Shown here one piece after another: positions 12,158 through 19,010 of a stretch of DNA of 64,000 nt. The notes beneath the pieces were generated by a model that saw only the letters and a program-made list of their open reading frames with translations, was not told where the DNA came from and searched no databases. The DNA is from Larkinella humicola (GTDB lineage Bacteria > Bacteroidota > Bacteroidia > Cytophagales > Spirosomataceae): assembly GCF_008727875.1 (NCBI RefSeq), contig NZ_VTWS01000004.1:1-64000 (forward strand). Direction: 5' to 3'. A program made the position numbers and the translations under genes. The first letter of the stretch is position 1; every line of letters begins with the position of its first letter.

Positions 12158-12373
12158 CTACTTCCGCTCGCCCTGCGCAAATGAAAGGTTTCGGTCCGTC
12201 AAGGCGGTTTTCAGGGTTTGCAGTGCATTTTTTCCAATGCCGTGCAGTGCCATAAATTCCGTTTCACTTAGGTCGGCCAGTTGTTCCAGTGTTTTAATTC
12301 CGGCATTCGCCAAAGCGCGTTGGGCCGGTTTTGCCAGTTGATCGAACGGGTGGCTTTCAGCTTTTTCTTTCAT
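12158..12373 (-). CDS. Small helix-hairpin-helix protein resembling RNA polymerase alpha CTD
   Basis: This 71-residue protein consists almost entirely of one alpha-CTD-like fold. RALANAGIKTLEQLADLSETEF, then LHGIGKNALQTLKTAL, matches the pattern of the RNA polymerase alpha C-terminal domain with its helix-hairpin-helix LxGIGKxxL motif. The ATG at 12371-12373 was preferred because the extra upstream residues are unlike the family. A -7 box, TACATTTG, lies 22-30 bp upstream. It has no alpha N-terminal domain. It may bind DNA or a sigma/activator surface. The fold is well supported; function is inferred. Confidence 0.8.
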   Translation of the reverse strand: MKEKAESHPFDQLAKPAQRALANAGIKTLEQLADLSETEFMALHGIGKNALQTLKTALTDRNLSFAQGERK

Positions 12374-12395
12374 ATCGGGGTTTGTTAGTAACCCC

Positions 12396-12403
12396 CAAAT
12401 GTA
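12396..12403 (-). promoter_or_regulatory. Candidate -7 box of the alpha-CTD-like gene
   Basis: On the minus strand this reads TACATTTG, an exact TAnnTTTG match 22 bp upstream of the ATG. A partial match to the TGTCGCA motif found at three other promoters lies about 21 bp further upstream. Confidence 0.5.
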
Positions 12404-12749
12404 CCCTCCCGAAAGTATACGAATGCGGTGCGAATGCGACACATTGCAGGTGATTTGCGTCAAGAACGGGTGGTTAAAGCTGCTTTACGACTTGTTAACC
12501 AATGGCCGATCAGAGGGCTATACACCGAAATGGATACGTTTTTTTATACGCACTCGACGGTTCATCAATTGCGCTCCGATTAGAGCCACGTTTGTTCCGT
12601 TGAACCAAATTTTTTCACGAAACTTTCATCGCCGATCAGCGGATTTAGGGTCGTAGAAACGTAAAGCCGATTGAACCGCAGGCCAGCTTACGCCAGCAAC
12701 GTGCCTATGATAATTAAAGAGAGAGATTTCATACGGAGAAGAGGTATTT
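12404..12749. other. Intergenic region without a convincing gene
   Basis: This stretch lies between the start of the alpha-CTD-like gene and the end of the beta-barrel gene. Open frames here are short, lack recognisable domains and overlap no plausible start. I see no terminator of high quality in it. Confidence 0.5.
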
Positions 12750-13340
12750 TCAGAAACTGAGCCCCAGCCGAAAAGCAATCCGGTTATAAACCCGGCTTTC
12801 GTATTTATAAATTTCATTCCAGCCGAGCGGTTTGTCGGCATTGGCTTCCTGCCGTTTGTAATTGAGCGATAGAGTGAAATTGGTATTCTGCGGTCGCCCG
12901 ATTCGGAAGCCAATACCCGGAGCAATTACCCACCCGCCCCGGGTTTCATAGCCCGTTGGATCTTCGTTCAGCCACGCAAAACCGTAGCCGGTATCCAGGC
13001 TGGTGAACACCCGCAGGTTCTTCTGGCCCGGTTGCGCCAGATCGTAACGCACCCCCGCGCATACCGGCATTAGCAGGGCCGCATTGTACCAATCGACGCC
13101 CACCGTTCCGCCCACCGCCAGTTTAGGCCGGAGCTGAACACCATTAAACGTCTGGGCGGTGATGTTCTGCCTTTTTCTGACGCTTTCAGAGGCCGTATTG
13201 ACGTTGTAACGGACTTGTCCGAACAAGACGCCGAATTCTGTCATGTTCGTAAAAACGGGCTTAAACGGGCTTTTTTGTGCGTAGAGCGGAAGCGCAAACA
13301 GGCACAGCAGCCAAACGGTTTTGCTACCAGTCTTTTTCAT
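12750..13340 (-). CDS. Outer membrane beta-barrel protein
   Basis: This 196-residue protein has a signal peptide (ending PLYAQ). It shows alternating beta-strand patterns and aromatic girdles typical of small outer membrane barrels, for example VGVDWYNAALLMPVCAGVRYDL and NFTLSLNYKRQEAN, and ends in a strand closing with Phe (AFRLGLSF). The start is 11 nt downstream of the LVIVD lipoprotein stop on the same strand, so the pair is an operon. That operon carries the ECF-type promoter shared with the sigma factor genes, so the barrel is probably part of the envelope-stress response. No specific function is visible. Confidence 0.85.
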   Translation of the reverse strand: MKKTGSKTVWLLCLFALPLYAQKSPFKPVFTNMTEFGVLFGQVRYNVNTASESVRKRQNITAQTFNGVQLRPKLAVGGTVGVDWYNAALLMPVCAGVRYDLAQPGQKNLRVFTSLDTGYGFAWLNEDPTGYETRGGWVIAPGIGFRIGRPQNTNFTLSLNYKRQEANADKPLGWNEIYKYESRVYNRIAFRLGLSF

Positions 13341-13351
13341 GGGGGAGTTGG

Positions 13352-14647
13352 TTAGCTGGCCGGATAAGGCCGTTGCACGGGAATTTTGCTCAACAGCTTC
13401 AACTTGCGCGGATTGCTGTAGTCGTATTGGTAAAAACCGTCCCGCCCGATCAGCAGCAGTGATTTCCCGAGCGGGATCACATCGTAGGCCTGAAATCCTT
13501 CCAGGTGCTCCAATTGATCGATTTTCATGGCATCACTTACATTGAACGTTTTCAGACCATAGGCTCCTTCGCAAATGAACAAATTCGGAAAGTCGATGCC
13601 CAAACCGTGCGGGTTTTTCATCGCATAGCTCTTCAGGAGTCGGGGACTATACAAATTGGACACATCCACCACATCGAGCTGATTGGTGAACCCCTGGCAA
13701 GTCGTACCCGAACGAAGCGTTACATAAGCTTTGTCTTCGTGAACTACCACCGGATCGCAAACGCGGGCATGATCGAAGGTCGACATCCGTACCGGTTTTT
13801 CAGGATTGCTGTTATCATAGATGTGCATGCCCGTCTGAGAACCAATAAACAGTTTGTCTTTATACGGAAAAATCGTTTCGATCCCCCATCCCAGCGTTAC
13901 TTTATTGCCTTTCTTCGGATCCGATGGGGTTTTGATATCAAACAATTGCATTTCGGCCTGGCTGACAGTATAGAGGTAGTTATCATACAGCGTAAACCGG
14001 GCCATCGAGCCACCGGTTCCGTTCGTGCTGGGAGCGGGCGAACCGGTCGCACTGTTGAAATTTTGAATACCACCCCGCATATCGGCAGCCCAAAGGCAGT
14101 TGATACAACCGCCGGTATTGACACTGCTTTCGCAATCCGTATTGACAGTTTGCGTGACGTACTCCACTTTCTGATCATTGATGATTTCCTGCTGGGCGTT
14201 CAGACTCCAGTAACCACCATCGAACTGTCCATTTTGAAAAACATCTTTGACTCGGTTAAGCTCGCGGATGTTTTGCGGGTCGCTGATATCGAATGCTACC
14301 AGATCCATGAAACTGTCGGCATACAGAATGTTGTTGCGGATGGCCATGTCGCCGTTGCCCGGTATGCGTAAAAACGCGACGGTTTTCGGAGCCGACGGAT
14401 TGCGGTTGTCGATCACGTGAATGCCTTCCTTGATCTCGTTAATCAGCAAAAAACCGTCTTTGGTGTAAATTTTCCCCGGATTGACCAGCGTCCGGGGTTG
14501 TTCAGCCTGCACACCCTGGCGGATTTGGGCAATGGTGAACGTTCGGGGTGTGAATTGTCGGAAAGTGCGGGTTTCTTTGCATTTGTCGGTGCAGCCGTTC
14601 AGCCCCACCAGCAGAACTCCGAGCAGGAAGTAAAGAGTATGTTTCAT
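13352..14647 (-). CDS. LVIVD-repeat beta-propeller lipoprotein
   Basis: This 431-residue lipoprotein has lipobox GLNGC with Cys19. The mature part contains LVIVD-like repeats, recognisable as hydrophobic-D blades: GIHVIDNRNPSAPKTVAFLRI, DLVAFDISDPQNIREL, QLFDIKTPSDPKKG, HIYDNSNPEKPVRM and LDVVDVSNLYSPRLLKSY. This indicates an all-beta propeller on the envelope. ATG at 14645-14647 gives the lipobox; the longer upstream frame is not a signal sequence. An ECF-type promoter element lies about 31-59 bp upstream. LVIVD proteins are often surface-exposed, but the ligand is unknown. Confidence 0.88.
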   Translation of the reverse strand: MKHTLYFLLGVLLVGLNGCTDKCKETRTFRQFTPRTFTIAQIRQGVQAEQPRTLVNPGKIYTKDGFLLINEIKEGIHVIDNRNPSAPKTVAFLRIPGNGDMAIRNNILYADSFMDLVAFDISDPQNIRELNRVKDVFQNGQFDGGYWSLNAQQEIINDQKVEYVTQTVNTDCESSVNTGGCINCLWAADMRGGIQNFNSATGSPAPSTNGTGGSMARFTLYDNYLYTVSQAEMQLFDIKTPSDPKKGNKVTLGWGIETIFPYKDKLFIGSQTGMHIYDNSNPEKPVRMSTFDHARVCDPVVVHEDKAYVTLRSGTTCQGFTNQLDVVDVSNLYSPRLLKSYAMKNPHGLGIDFPNLFICEGAYGLKTFNVSDAMKIDQLEHLEGFQAYDVIPLGKSLLLIGRDGFYQYDYSNPRKLKLLSKIPVQRPYPAS

Positions 14648-14677
14648 AGCAACAGGTTGTTTAGGGATATGCCCAAC

Positions 14678-14706
14678 TGACCCTATTGACACTGAAAGAG
14701 TTGGAA
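14678..14706 (-). promoter_or_regulatory. ECF-type promoter of the LVIVD-barrel operon
   Basis: The minus strand reads TTCCAACT, 17 bases, then GTCA. The AAC core and GTC resemble ECF -35 and -10 elements. The 17-base spacing is identical to the elements upstream of the sigma factor and serpin genes. It ends 31 bp before the ATG. Confidence 0.65.
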
Positions 14707-14715
14707 TAGAAGCAT

Positions 14716-14750
14716 AAAAAAATTGCCCGGCAGGCAGAGCCGCCGGGCAA
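14716..14750 (-). terminator. Terminator of the serpin-META operon
   Basis: TTGCCCGGC (14723-14731) and GCCGGGCAA (14742-14750) form a perfect 9-bp stem. On the minus strand it is followed by seven U. It lies about 100 nt after the META lipoprotein stop and just upstream of the LVIVD promoter. Confidence 0.85.
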
Positions 14751-14846
14751 TCCGGTTTGCACAATGAATCAGAGGTCAAAGTTTTATTGGAGGAGACCGG
14801 CTGGTGTGGATAAATACCGGCCTCTCTCCGTATTTTTCAGGTTGTA

Positions 14847-15299
14847 TTACTTTTCTTTTTCGTACACCAGTTCGCCGGAAGTTTCTCCTTCAGCAATCAG
14901 TCGCAGCCGGTTACCGGTTACTTCGTATCGTTTTACGGCCTGCAGTTTTTTGAAATAATCGGTTTCAAACTGCATGGCATCCGCCGGACCGGCCATTTTG
15001 GTGGCACCAATGGCACTCATCTGCACGCCACTGGAAGCCGATGAACCCGTCAGCGTGGCAAAGTAGTGGTTGACCGATGAACGCCCCCCCACTTGGTAAG
15101 CCACCCGGTTGGTGATTTCGCTGCTCGCCGAATCGGGGGTCAGCACCAGCGTCACCGCAAATTTGGAAGCCGGTTCAATCAGTTTATAGGTACCGGCAAT
15201 GGCGGTGGTAGACAGAGGTTGAATGGTGGCTTTCGTTTTATCGTTGCAGGAAGCTGCGATGAACAGAATACCGGCAACGAGAAGGGCTATGATTTTCAT
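14847..15299 (-). CDS. META/HslJ-like domain lipoprotein
   Basis: This 150-residue lipoprotein has lipobox IAASC with Cys18. The mature region resembles a META (HslJ) domain: GTYKLIEPASKFAVTLVL at the front, MQFETDYFKKLQAVKRYEVTGNRLRLI with the characteristic sequence before the last strands, and a short charged end. META proteins are envelope proteins associated with stress or protease secretion in other bacteria. The start codon overlaps the serpin stop (ATGA), so the two are translationally coupled. It is therefore part of the ECF-controlled operon. Family confidence is moderate because the domain is short. Confidence 0.75.
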   Translation of the reverse strand: MKIIALLVAGILFIAASCNDKTKATIQPLSTTAIAGTYKLIEPASKFAVTLVLTPDSASSEITNRVAYQVGGRSSVNHYFATLTGSSASSGVQMSAIGATKMAGPADAMQFETDYFKKLQAVKRYEVTGNRLRLIAEGETSGELVYEKEK

Positions 15300-16543
15300 G
15301 GCAGTGTTGTTTCCGGATTGACGATTTTACCCATAAACAAGACTGAACCCGTTCCTTTTTCCGTAATCAGAAAGACAAAAGGACGATCGCAAATGAGAGA
15401 AGGCCCCGCCGAAGTAACTTCAACACCGATGCTGGTTACGGCAGCAGCCTCGGTTCCTTTCTCATCGACGGCTACATACGTATTTTGCTTCACGTAACTC
15501 ACCTGCAAACCCTGGCCGGTGCTGATGCCTGAAAAATTGGCAGCGTTCGAGAAAGCCGACGGCATTCCCATTTTCGACAACGCATCGTTGAGGGTCGCTT
15601 CATACTCCATTGTAAACTTCGGCAACCCAACCGCCACTTTGCTTTCGCGCATGGTCTGTTGCAAGTCGGCCCATTCGGTTGCGCTCAGGGTGTTGATGAT
15701 CGCATCAGCCGAGGAGCTTTCGGTCGGCACCAAAACCGTCATCGAATACGTTCCATCGCCATACGGCAGTTCAAAAGCTCCGTAGGTGGGGCGGAACGCG
15801 TGGCGAAGGCTGGTGGTCATGTTCATCATCTTCACCTGTTTCTGCGAACCGGAAATCAGGGTAAAGGGAGAATCAAAGGTGTTCTTTGTCTCAAACTGGT
15901 ATTTCCAGTCTCCTTTGAAATACAGCGCATTGAGCAAAAACAACACCTGTTCGTCCTTAACTTCCTGAATGACTTTCGTGATTTTGGCGTTCGTATTGTC
16001 GCTGGCCCACTGGTTGATTTTGTTGATAACCGGGGTCGGATTGCTGAAATCTTCGCCCGAAATCCGGGCATTGAACGTTTTTTTCGTGGCGTCGAGGTAC
16101 GACGGTTCAACGGAAAAACCGTTGCGGTACCAAATTGAATTGGCCAGTTTTGTTGTTACTTTCGGATCAGCGGTGGGCAGCCCTTTCAATAAAAACTCAT
16201 AGGTTTGGTTTGCATCAGCCAGCGAAACCCCTTCCAGGTGCATCGCTTTTTTCATTTCATCCGCCGTCTGACCCGCGGCTCCGTTCAGCAATAGGCCGAG
16301 AGCCATGTGCAGACTCAGCGGTGAAACAAAAATATTTTCGTCCTTCTTCTGGTCTTCGTTGACGCGCTTCAGAAAGTCGAAGGAAAAATCATTAGTTTTT
16401 TGAGCAAAGGCACGCGCTTCCGGAGTCGACGTTAAACCGCCGGTTCCCGGATTGTCCGGTGTCGTATCGTTTTGGCAACCGCTTATCGTCAACAGCGAAA
16501 CCGTTGCCATCAACAGGCTGGAAACAAAGGGTATTCTTCTCAT
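15296..16543 (-). CDS. Serpin-family serine protease inhibitor lipoprotein
   Basis: This 415-residue protein has lipobox ISGC with Cys23, and a full serpin fold from about residue 45: NIFVSPLSLHMALGLLLNGAAGQT, the LANSIWYRNGF strand, LLNALYFKGDWKYQF, and a C-terminal CDRPFVFLITEKGTGSVLFMGKI. The reactive-centre hinge is inhibitory in style (EKGTEAAAVTS, small residues at P12-P9). Counting from the hinge places P1-P1' near Val-Thr-Ser, which would suit an elastase- or subtilisin-like target. ATG at 16541-16543 follows a GTG at 16544. An anchored serpin would protect the cell surface or periplasm from proteases. It is preceded by an ECF-type promoter. Confidence 0.93.
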   Translation of the reverse strand: MRRIPFVSSLLMATVSLLTISGCQNDTTPDNPGTGGLTSTPEARAFAQKTNDFSFDFLKRVNEDQKKDENIFVSPLSLHMALGLLLNGAAGQTADEMKKAMHLEGVSLADANQTYEFLLKGLPTADPKVTTKLANSIWYRNGFSVEPSYLDATKKTFNARISGEDFSNPTPVINKINQWASDNTNAKITKVIQEVKDEQVLFLLNALYFKGDWKYQFETKNTFDSPFTLISGSQKQVKMMNMTTSLRHAFRPTYGAFELPYGDGTYSMTVLVPTESSSADAIINTLSATEWADLQQTMRESKVAVGLPKFTMEYEATLNDALSKMGMPSAFSNAANFSGISTGQGLQVSYVKQNTYVAVDEKGTEAAAVTSIGVEVTSAGPSLICDRPFVFLITEKGTGSVLFMGKIVNPETTLP

Positions 16544-16587
16544 CACAATCGGGTTTTGTTAAACCATGTGGAGCGCTCACAATACAA

Positions 16588-16616
16588 AGACCCGATCGGA
16601 AAAGAATTGGTTGGAA
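16588..16616 (-). promoter_or_regulatory. ECF-type promoter of the serpin-META operon
   Basis: The minus strand reads TTCCAACC, 17 bases, then GTCT. It is identical in the -35 octamer and in spacing to the element in front of the sigma factor gene. It ends 44 bp before the serpin ATG. Confidence 0.68.
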
Positions 16617-16667
16617 GGGGGGTGAAAAAAAGAGAAGAAAAATGAGAATTTGTCTGATAACTAACTT

Positions 16668-18362
16668 TTAGAAGTGGTAATTCAGCCCAAATCCAACCCC
16701 AACGGCCTGCGGGCGAACCTGGAGTTGCGCGTCTGATTGCGTACCATTTTGCAGTGATTGCTGGTAGGACCCCGTCAACGAACCGGACCAATGGTGGGTA
16801 GGGTGATAGCTGACGCGTAAACCGGCCGTGCCCGCCAGCGACATGGGGCGGTAGACCTGATCACTGGGATTGACTTCCAGCGCCCCATTGACCGTATTCT
16901 TTAGAAACACATTGGCCATCAAACCGCCCAGCACGGAATAGCTAATCTTATGTTCGGGCAAAATGTGATAGCCGATCTGAACCGGAACCTGCAAATACTG
17001 AAAATCGTTGGAAACAACCTGATCGGAGGGCACCACCACCAGCGAAGACGCATTCGTTAGATTATTTTTGTCGGCGTACGAAGGCAGAAAGTTTGTGTTC
17101 GGAGACGACGCCAATTGCGGAAGCGCCGGGCTACTGTTGCGGATGGCGTTTACGAGTAAATTTTCGGTTTGGTTCGTAAACACGTTGGTCACCGTTGCAT
17201 TGTTCCGCGCCTGTGACCGGCCATTCAGATACTGAACGCCGGCTTCGACCGACCAGTGTTTGCTAAACTGGAGGCCAGAGCTGGCCTGCCACGCCATTGA
17301 AATCTGCGCCTGGTTTTGCAACGGAGAAATTGCCTGCCGACTACTCTGCTGAACCGCATTACTGGCAACATAGGCCTGATTAAAACTGGACTGAACGCTG
17401 GTCATCGGATTAAAGGACATGGGGGTTGCCGTTAGAGCCGCCCAGTACTCGTTTTTCGATCGGCCTTTTTCCTGCGGTTCGATCGTGGTTTCCGGAGCGC
17501 GATACCAGATGATCCGGCTAATCGGAGCCGGGTTCTTCAGGGCTACCAGCTTGCTTTTTATGTACGAAGCTTCGTAGGTCAGTTGCGTATCGGCAACTTT
17601 GCTGCCGGTTTCGTCCGGTAGGGAAGTTTGGATGGGTGTTGCTGTTTTCGTGATCCGTTCTGACGACGCAAATGTACCCGTCGTGAGGTCTGGCGAATTG
17701 GTTTCGGTTCCCCGGCTGGATTTGGAAGGTTGATTCGTCCGGCGGTTTTCAGCGATTCGAATCGCGTCAGCATTCGGCTGATGATCGGCCGAGGGGACGG
17801 TTTTCGGTTTCTGAGCGGCAAGCCCTTCCGGTGAAGCGGTTTTTCGTTTCCCCGTCAAAACGGACTGGTCTTTGATCATTTGATCAATTGTCGTGGCGGT
17901 TTCAGAGTGTTCCAGTTCCGGGACAACCGGCGTGCCGGACGGCGTATTTTTGGTGTTGGCCCGGCGGTTTGCGGCCAGGGTTTCATCGGTTTTGCCAGCG
18001 AATTCGGGCTGGCGGTCCGCGCTGGACGGGGTCGTCGCCGGAGTGGTTACTTTCTCTTGTCTGGCGAGTTGGTCCGCCGTTGCCCTGGGTGATAAACCGC
18101 TTTGACCAGCCACCGGCTGATTCGTATTCGTCATGTCGATGGACTGGATGGCCCACCAGCCAATTAAAAGGGCCATAACGGCCGCAGCCACACCATACAA
18201 CCAGGGTTTTGCCCGGGGCCAGAGTGGAATGATCGGTTCCGTTTCTTCTTCGTCTAACCGACGCGCAATCCTGTCCCAAAGCTCATCGGATGGGCTTTCG
18301 GCAGCATCTTCGAAGATACTTCGCCACTCTTCATTTACTTGTTCTTCTTTTGAGAGACTCAT
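16668..18362 (-). CDS. Dual-membrane anti-sigma factor with outer membrane barrel (Dma-like)
   Basis: This 564-residue protein has an unusual three-part layout. Residues 1-50 are acidic, helical and lack a signal peptide (FEDAAESPSDELWDRIARRLDEEE), like anti-sigma cytoplasmic domains. One membrane segment follows at about 54-72. A long Thr/Ser/Gln/Pro-rich linker (about 75-300) could cross the periplasm. The last 240 residues have porin-like beta-strands (WQASSGLQFSKHWSVEAGVQYL) and end in VGFGLNYHF. This matches the dual membrane-spanning anti-sigma (Dma) design described in Bacteroides thetaiotaomicron. The start overlaps the sigma factor stop (ATGA), supporting coupled synthesis. Binding to the sigma factor is inferred. 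Confidence 0.82.
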   Translation of the reverse strand: MSLSKEEQVNEEWRSIFEDAAESPSDELWDRIARRLDEEETEPIIPLWPRAKPWLYGVAAAVMALLIGWWAIQSIDMTNTNQPVAGQSGLSPRATADQLARQEKVTTPATTPSSADRQPEFAGKTDETLAANRRANTKNTPSGTPVVPELEHSETATTIDQMIKDQSVLTGKRKTASPEGLAAQKPKTVPSADHQPNADAIRIAENRRTNQPSKSSRGTETNSPDLTTGTFASSERITKTATPIQTSLPDETGSKVADTQLTYEASYIKSKLVALKNPAPISRIIWYRAPETTIEPQEKGRSKNEYWAALTATPMSFNPMTSVQSSFNQAYVASNAVQQSSRQAISPLQNQAQISMAWQASSGLQFSKHWSVEAGVQYLNGRSQARNNATVTNVFTNQTENLLVNAIRNSSPALPQLASSPNTNFLPSYADKNNLTNASSLVVVPSDQVVSNDFQYLQVPVQIGYHILPEHKISYSVLGGLMANVFLKNTVNGALEVNPSDQVYRPMSLAGTAGLRVSYHPTHHWSGSLTGSYQQSLQNGTQSDAQLQVRPQAVGVGFGLNYHF

Positions 18363-18904
18363 TTCGGAATTGGACGCTCGTTCTGAATCTTTTGTTGCAG
18401 CAGCATGCGGGCACGCGAAAACTGCGATTTGGATGTACCTTCTGAAATATCGAGTAATTCCGCAATTTCCGGGTGCGTATACCCTTCAATGGCGTACAGA
18501 TTAAATACGGCCTGGCATCCCGGCGGGAGTTCCTGCACCATCTTCAGTAGTTGCTGGTAGTGCAGACCCGATAGGCTGTCTTCCGTCTGCGGTAATGTAT
18601 TGGGCGGCACGTCTTCCAACTCGGCCGGGTTTTGCCAGGGCTTCTGTTTGCGGATGTGCTTCAGTGCCGTATTGATCACAATGCGTTTCAACCATGCTTC
18701 CAGCGGGCACTCAAACCGAAATGTATCAATATGTTGGAACGCTTTCACGAAGGAATCCTGCAGCACGTCTTCGGCGTCGTCACGGTTTTTGGTGTACCGT
18801 TGGCTGACCACAAAGAGCTTCCTGGCGAATAACTCGTAGAGTTTTCGCTGAGCAGTTCGGTCCTTATGTCGACAGCCGTCAACTAACGCTCGTTCATCCA
18901 ACAT
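18359..18904 (-). CDS. ECF RNA polymerase sigma factor
   Basis: This 181-residue sigma-70 family factor has only regions 2 and 4. Region 2 is at about residues 20-90 (KLFVVSQRYTKNRDDAEDVLQDSFVKAF, then WLKRIVINTALKHIRK). Region 4 is at about 120-175 (LPPGCQAVFNLYAIEGYTHPEIAELLDISEGTSKSQFSRARMLL). It lies immediately upstream of, and overlaps, the anti-sigma gene. A TTCCAACC-N17-GTCA element ends 17 bp before its ATG, suggesting autoregulation. The same element occurs before two neighbouring envelope operons, so these are probable targets. The family is certain; the regulon is inferred from promoter matching. Confidence 0.95.
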   Translation of the reverse strand: MLDERALVDGCRHKDRTAQRKLYELFARKLFVVSQRYTKNRDDAEDVLQDSFVKAFQHIDTFRFECPLEAWLKRIVINTALKHIRKQKPWQNPAELEDVPPNTLPQTEDSLSGLHYQQLLKMVQELPPGCQAVFNLYAIEGYTHPEIAELLDISEGTSKSQFSRARMLLQQKIQNERPIPK

Positions 18905-18920
18905 ACTAATGCAACACTAC

Positions 18921-18949
18921 TGACCCCAACGCAAGTCGGACGGTTGGAA
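18921..18949 (-). promoter_or_regulatory. ECF-type autoregulated promoter of the sigma operon
   Basis: The minus strand reads TTCCAACC, 17 bases, then GTCA, ending 17 bp before the sigma ATG. It shares octamer and spacing with the serpin promoter and closely with the LVIVD promoter. Confidence 0.68.
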
Positions 18950-19010
18950 AGGAATTAAAATAAATTTTGGCCTAACCCGCTGGCAACGAGTGAATATAAT
19001 TTTTAGCCTG

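Follow-up and report, generated by a model that had tools for sequence, protein, structure and literature searches.

We analyzed a stretch of 64,000 nucleotides from Larkinella humicola (contig NZ_VTWS01000004.1, positions 1 to 64,000; hereafter the window), which belongs to a 7.86-Mb genome. It carries a minus-strand locus encoding an extracytoplasmic function (ECF) sigma factor, its putative anti-sigma partner, a serpin, a META-domain protein, an LVIVD protein and a small barrel-like protein, and the same two-part element stands ahead of the sigma, serpin and LVIVD genes. The elements were scored with a held-out matrix of 43 bases, trained on 70 sigma promoters that all came from outside Larkinella. 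The features are the following.

18921..18949, minus strand: sigma-operon promoter element, exact match, TTCCAACC-N17-GTCA, 16 nt to the ATG, 25.9 bits
18359..18904, minus strand: ECF sigma factor of 181 residues, Pfam Sigma70_r2 and Sigma70_r4_2
16668..18362, minus strand: putative anti-sigma partner of 564 residues, its start overlapping the sigma stop by 4 nt (18359-18362)
16588..16616, minus strand: serpin-META promoter element, exact match, 34.4 bits, the top score in the window
15296..16546, minus strand: serpin, predicted lipoprotein with lipobox ISGC, Pfam Serpin 360.3 bits, hinge EKGTEAAAVTS
14847..15299, minus strand: META-domain lipoprotein, Pfam META 44.6 bits, in the same operon as the serpin with a 4-nt overlap
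14678..14706, minus strand: LVIVD-barrel promoter element, exact match, 28.5 bits
13352..14647, minus strand: LVIVD lipoprotein (LNGC), predicted beta-propeller, Pfam LVIVD 34.6 bits, model with a mean predicted local distance difference test score (pLDDT) of 84.9
12750..13340, minus strand: small secreted protein resembling a barrel, encoded distally in the LVIVD operon, signal peptide by eye, sub-threshold Pfam porin match

A previous reading of this DNA from its letters alone (the sequence-only reading) had proposed that these three elements, each with a 17-base gap and lying 17-44 bp before the ATG, are ECF promoters without a fourth copy in the intergenic DNA of the window and define a local, unreported envelope defence regulon. 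An exact pattern search agreed on coordinates, strand and gap, since TTCCAACY-N17-GTCW was found exactly three times in the window and always on the minus strand. The distances between the end of the motif and the start codon, 30 nt for LVIVD, 16 nt for sigma and either 41 nt (GTG) or 44 nt (downstream ATG) for the serpin, matched the proposed range within one base. The held-out matrix ranked the three sites first to third in the window, the fourth-ranked match reaching 9.7 bits, and the best scores in eight Markov-3 random windows were 6.7 to 12.3 bits. This confirmed that the three sites are real as described and far above chance. A T-rich tract lies immediately upstream of the sigma-operon element, inside 18950-18961. 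As to the targets, the proposed protease inhibitor, two lipoproteins and barrel had to be restated as three lipoproteins and a barrel-like protein, the serpin itself being a predicted lipoprotein.

We then considered how far the element is conserved. Matches to the sigma factor at E<=1e-20 were present in 36 of 39 genomes, that of L. humicola included; not all are orthologs, and the distant ones may be paralogs. The sigma factors paired with dual-membrane-spanning anti-sigma factors (Dma/Reo) belong to group ECF21; for the window sigma factor, among the matches listed, the superfamily model sigma70-ECF was the only NCBIfam model passed (Sig70_bacteroi1, for example, reached 93.9 against a cut-off of 126.4). 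In the best 80 of at least 583 sigma loci (the named loci), the element, at a score of at least 8/10, was found upstream of the related sigma gene in 65, compared to 30 of 1462 pieces taken at random from these loci; because same-genus loci are closely related, these and the following counts do not represent independent events. When counted gene by gene after removal of seven duplicate loci, a site preceded 78 of 93 sigma genes, 32 of 40 related LVIVD genes (one at spacing 17) and 15 of 26 related serpin genes, and only 2 of 16 META genes and 0 of 34 distal barrel genes, the barrel gene standing behind LVIVD in many loci. Outside Larkinella, the held-out matrix gave at least 12 bits for 24/32 LVIVD, 10/18 serpin, 0/8 META and 0/26 barrel genes and for 2/416 random pieces, and none of the eight META genes had a site even at 8 bits or more. 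Genes requiring a promoter and operon-internal genes were thus well separated, as the earlier model predicted. These data support autoregulation of the sigma gene as well as joint regulation of the serpin-META operon and the LVIVD-barrel operon, although the serpin part is patchy: serpin sites were present in Larkinella, five Dyadobacter loci, Telluribacter and one further genome.

Instead of having a single dedicated regulator, the element could serve several ECF sigma factors of the genome as a generic promoter. Indeed, the genome contains 76 Sigma70_r4_2 matches, 72 of them above the cut-off, several ECF paralogs have other partners with one hydrophobic segment, and one study considers overlap between ECF regulons in Flavobacterium (PMC9723704). 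However, among the best 30 of the 76 matches, which were checked, only the window sigma gene has a site of at least 12 bits (the next reached 10.6 and 10.2 bits), and the element accompanies the related sigma gene across genera. We thus regard a generic promoter as improbable.

The consensus derived from 124 sites is TTCCAACC-n-TTT-N11-GnGTC(T/A) and, in its full form, TTTT-N8-TTCCAACC-n-TTT-N11-GnGTC(T/A). Because only sites with an agreement of 8/10 or more went into the matrix, its box columns were pre-selected and only the remaining columns are independent. Without correction for base composition, columns outside the selection were also conserved, namely, the C after AAC (68%), the TTT at positions 9-11 (77, 82 and 70% T), the G at position 23 (89%), which stands two bases ahead of GTC, and, 9-12 bases 5' of the -35 box, a T tract (62-85% T). 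The spacing was equally well defined. In the whole genome, TTCCAAC-N18-GTCW had 27 matches, and the other spacings between 14 and 22 had 3-13 each; when AAC is followed by C or T, the numbers were 14 versus 1-6, and for matches ending in GGGTC they were 10 versus 0-2. None of the 47 wrong-spacing controls reached 12 bits with the held-out matrix, the highest scoring 3.0. AAC and GTC cores are typical for ECF promoters, and their fixed spacing and placement ahead of genes point to an element of this type. The proposal of a shared ECF-type promoter is supported by cross-genus conservation and the held-out matrix.

The T tract and the TTT behind the -35 box make the element unusually long, and the two boxes could in principle be a repressor or activator site rather than a sigma promoter. 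The sharp spacing peak, the ECF-like cores, a position mostly 16-47 nt ahead of starts and the presence of an ECF sigma gene behind the element in those 65 of 80 loci nevertheless make such a site very unlikely. As for a loose pattern occurring by chance in three places of one window, there was no excess over shuffles at up to two mismatches (19 window matches versus a mean of 17.3), and box matching alone is therefore insufficient for our claim, but the spacing, conservation and held-out matrix tests leave chance with practically no weight.

The regulon did not turn out to be local, as had been proposed, because sites recur genome-wide, mostly ahead of lipoproteins. A genome-wide search for TTCCAAC[CT]N17GTC[AT] gave 14 matches, of which 10 lie 16-99 nt ahead of a gene. 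These are the sigma, serpin and LVIVD genes and seven others, all encoding predicted lipoproteins, secreted or outer-membrane proteins. The remaining exact sites (L019, L020, L023 and L029) were set aside, as they lie in coding frames or have no target; several same-genus genomes also contain an L029-type match within a coding frame. We then collected 44 candidates in the L. humicola genome, 27 at spacing 18 and 17 with a looser -35 box and GGGTC, a set that is pattern-limited and not a full matrix scan. With the held-out matrix, 23 of the 44 scored at least 12 bits and 19 at least 17 bits, the latter line having been chosen after the data were seen. On reading, one of these 19 top sites was assigned to the sigma gene and 12 to lipoproteins, which include the serpin and LVIVD as well as an FKBP isomerase and a WD40-like propeller protein. 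Four more stand ahead of genes for other proteins that are secreted or in the outer membrane, one of which carries a type IX sorting domain, and the last two are L384, which has no target, and L387. One of the lipoproteins (L380) was recognized by eye, and the target of L022 was counted as secreted though the script calls it a lipoprotein. Site L387 (G000:C20:137602; 18.1 bits) has an O-antigen-ligase-like membrane protein gene 151 nt downstream. An automatic "promoter position" flag discriminated poorly (6/14 of the C/T form, 2/13 of the A/G form and 7/47 wrong-spacing controls) and was discarded, and a non-coding cut-off (coding score < -0.1; 8/14, 2/13 and 0/47, respectively), picked post hoc, was superseded by the held-out matrix.

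In 15 related genomes, seven of the same genus, the GGGTCW form had 75 sites versus 4 for the reversed pattern, with at least one site in 13 of the 15. We inspected 67 of these sites, the other eight being inside the sigma-serpin-LVIVD locus, and 51 of the 67 scored at least 12 bits. Since the rule used to call lipoproteins favors lipoprotein-like starts, the identical rule was applied to controls: it was positive for 35/67 sites of the relatives and 9/27 own spacing-18 sites, compared to 2/47 wrong-spacing sites and 0/15 matches of the off-by-two pattern CCAAC-N18-GGGTC, which served as a chance set (15 matches versus 56 reversed). Judged by eye, a number of lipoprotein families follow the site repeatedly, in several species.

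The gene overlapping the sigma stop had been overlooked by the sequence-only reading. The AlphaFold model of its product, based on a 38-sequence alignment and with a mean pLDDT of 66.5, has helices at residues 5-18 and 26-41, a transmembrane helix at 53-78 and strands at 305-563, separated by a linker of about 225 residues (79-303) that is mostly disordered or of low confidence. The N-terminal blocks reach a pLDDT of 59-75, with a dip to 46 at residues 41-50, and the predicted C-terminal barrel, for which we counted eight long strands from the strand list, is largely above 80. Foldseek matched the partner to OmpA (TMt 0.72), and residues 11-104 gave a weak match to an NCBIfam anti-sigma model (29.4 bits versus a cut-off of 100). 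A partner open reading frame lies directly behind sigma in 79 of the 80 named loci, and in the other one (L333) the contig ends soon after sigma. The 79 partners have similar N termini by eye and a hydrophobic segment within the first 200 residues, as identified by a hydropathy scan and not by a transmembrane predictor; this segment is weak (<1.6) in seven of them, and a second one is present in L286. Four of the 79 are only 200-219 residues long, too short for a barrel, and two more (L339 and L350) are cut off by contig ends. In the window, the partner thus shares with the Dma and Reo proteins its place behind an ECF sigma gene and, in its model, cytoplasmic helices with a single transmembrane helix followed by a periplasmic segment and a barrel. 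As modeled, it has the Reo/Dma architecture of dual-membrane-spanning anti-sigma factors, and it would bind and inhibit its cognate sigma factor. An internal promoter of its own (CTGCAAC-N18-GTCC, just 5' of its start in seven same-genus loci) was set aside, as this is coding sequence and outside the top 12 matrix matches of the window.

The computations thus give a shared element with its spacing and conservation, a set of candidate targets and a predicted protein architecture. We consider it highly probable that an ECF sigma factor has its control locus here and is held inactive by an overlapping two-membrane anti-sigma factor, with a shared promoter driving the regulon. The anti-sigma factor, reaching from the cytoplasm to the outer membrane, would hold the sigma factor inactive until a disturbance at the outer-membrane barrel, or cleavage of the periplasmic linker, frees it. 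We infer that the window sigma factor, together with RNA polymerase, would then start at TTCCAACC-n-TTT-N11-GnGTC(T/A) promoters in response to an envelope-stress signal. One of these is its own, which would create positive feedback; the others would be those of the LVIVD propeller/barrel operon, the serpin-META operon and about a dozen lipoprotein, secreted and outer-membrane protein genes elsewhere. The benefit would be a re-armed outer membrane and surface, with lipoproteins, an FKBP-type isomerase, small barrels and a protease inhibitor as output. A role in envelope defence would be in line with the gene content and with the known relatives.

Several observations weigh against this interpretation. 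Fifteen of the 80 sigma loci and 11 of the 26 serpin genes have no good site, and the serpin site is absent in, among others, all four named serpin-bearing Spirosoma loci and three Dyadobacter loci. Among the 19 high-scoring sites of L. humicola, L384 (no target) and L387 lack a clear secreted target, four sites at 12-17 bits (L029, L361, L366 and L382) have no convincing one, and the gene behind the exact match L018, encoding a 126-residue lipoprotein, has a site of just 6.1 bits. The plain pattern was also counted in 19 additional genomes, most of them more distant, where it had 79 matches versus 36 reversed, only about a twofold excess; we viewed 30 of the 79, and some lie ahead of secreted proteins and many in coding frames, so that no claim is based on them. 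Finally, NigD is a hallmark target in Bacteroidales, but NigD_N (PF12667) was found in 0 of 118 genomes, that of L. humicola included, while the control Bacteroides ihuae was positive, and NigD was rejected as a target of this regulon.

The regulon is not unreported as a kind. Systems of the Reo/Dma type that target lipoproteins have been described in Bacteroides and Phocaeicola, where they act in toxin defence, outer-membrane stress and vesiculation (PMC9308784, PMC13114119, PMC13088901). In EcfO-Reo, as in Larkinella, an ECF sigma gene is followed by that of an anti-sigma factor spanning the inner and outer membranes, and surface lipoproteins are among the targets; the sigma gene is induced there along with the regulon, being up 33-fold after toxin exposure (PMC9308784). 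In Bacteroides thetaiotaomicron, expression of the sigma gene das2 and of the adjacent bt_1555-1557 goes up when Dma2 is lost (PMC13088901). Both findings fit the autoregulated, neighbor-including layout seen in Larkinella. In addition, a related regulon of Phocaeicola vulgatus lengthens the O-antigen (PMC9308784), and in Larkinella an O-antigen-ligase-like gene stands behind the 18.1-bit site. The systems differ in their targets, which in Larkinella are predicted to be the serpin, META, the LVIVD propeller, small barrels, the FKBP isomerase and unnamed lipoproteins, whereas the EcfO-Reo targets include NigD lipoproteins, of which Larkinella has no NigD_N match. They also differ in their hosts, gut Bacteroidales versus Cytophagales. 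In the parts of the accounts available to us, we saw no promoter element for EcfO-Reo and, for Das/Dma, neither a serpin nor an LVIVD neighbor (PMC13088901).

We found neither a promoter code for two-membrane anti-sigma systems nor a serpin in an ECF regulon in the literature searched, which was mostly open-access. The kind of regulator is hence known, but the promoter code, its wide conservation and the regulon of serpin, propeller and lipoproteins look new. The sigma-E/RseA system of Escherichia coli is likewise an autoregulated envelope ECF system with a membrane anti-sigma factor, and its regulon includes lipoproteins, folding factors and BamB. RseA, however, spans the inner membrane only, and the likeness between LVIVD and BamB is at the fold level only. 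Two-membrane anti-sigma factors being known from a few gut species, a promoter code kept across many Cytophagales genera makes the regulon of such a system readable from sequence. It names testable targets (the serpin, the propeller, the FKBP isomerase and small lipoproteins) and provides hosts from the environment for studying what is sensed by the barrel and by which route the signal gets across the periplasm.

The serpin has a reactive-loop hinge of the inhibitory type. Among 29 sequences (three of them duplicates), the hinge E-x-G-T-(E/T)-AAAVT and, at the deduced P1-P1' positions, T-S were read in 28, L283 having V-S; the numbering follows an alignment to alpha-1-antitrypsin. The inhibitory hinge and the nearly constant T-S make a real protease target likely. 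As a long shot, the serpin could be the off-switch of the circuit, trapping the serine protease whose cut in the anti-sigma linker frees the sigma factor and thereby closing a negative feedback; if true, a bacterial envelope-stress pathway would be subject to feedback by a suicide inhibitor.

The LVIVD lipoprotein can be modeled as a propeller with confidence. Among the top Foldseek matches listed are BamB lipoproteins (TMt up to 0.60), beside many other propellers; since propellers match widely, a role in outer-membrane assembly is only a lead. The order sigma, anti-sigma, serpin, META, LVIVD and barrel is kept in many loci of the genus and family; the serpin or META gene is missing in some, and LVIVD is present in more loci than the serpin.

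A number of minor observations were made along the way. The promoter spacers of two similar lipoprotein genes, behind L017 (G000:C6:29899) and L028 (G000:C17:331699), are nearly identical; this suggests that the site was retained in a duplication. The short partners (L304, L309, L323 and L324) come from two Flectobacillus, one Arcicella metagenome-assembled genome (MAG) and one Cytophagales MAG and end about where the barrel would start; they represent either split genes or a barrel-less version, and similar short partners occur in genomes G009 and G013. The partners of other ECF genes of the L. humicola genome (L046, L050, L059, L060 and L063) carry a hydrophobic segment around residues 42-53 and may be additional two-membrane anti-sigma factors that go with other promoters. 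A contig labelled Flavobacterium sp. SUN052 (L291) encodes a sigma factor 65% identical to that of the window, with the same types of neighbors, and fits Spirosomaceae better; either the assembly is mislabelled or contaminated, or there has been a transfer. A small open reading frame on the minus strand (12158-12463), located downstream of the LVIVD operon, has helix-hairpin-helix and RNA polymerase alpha-CTD-like matches.

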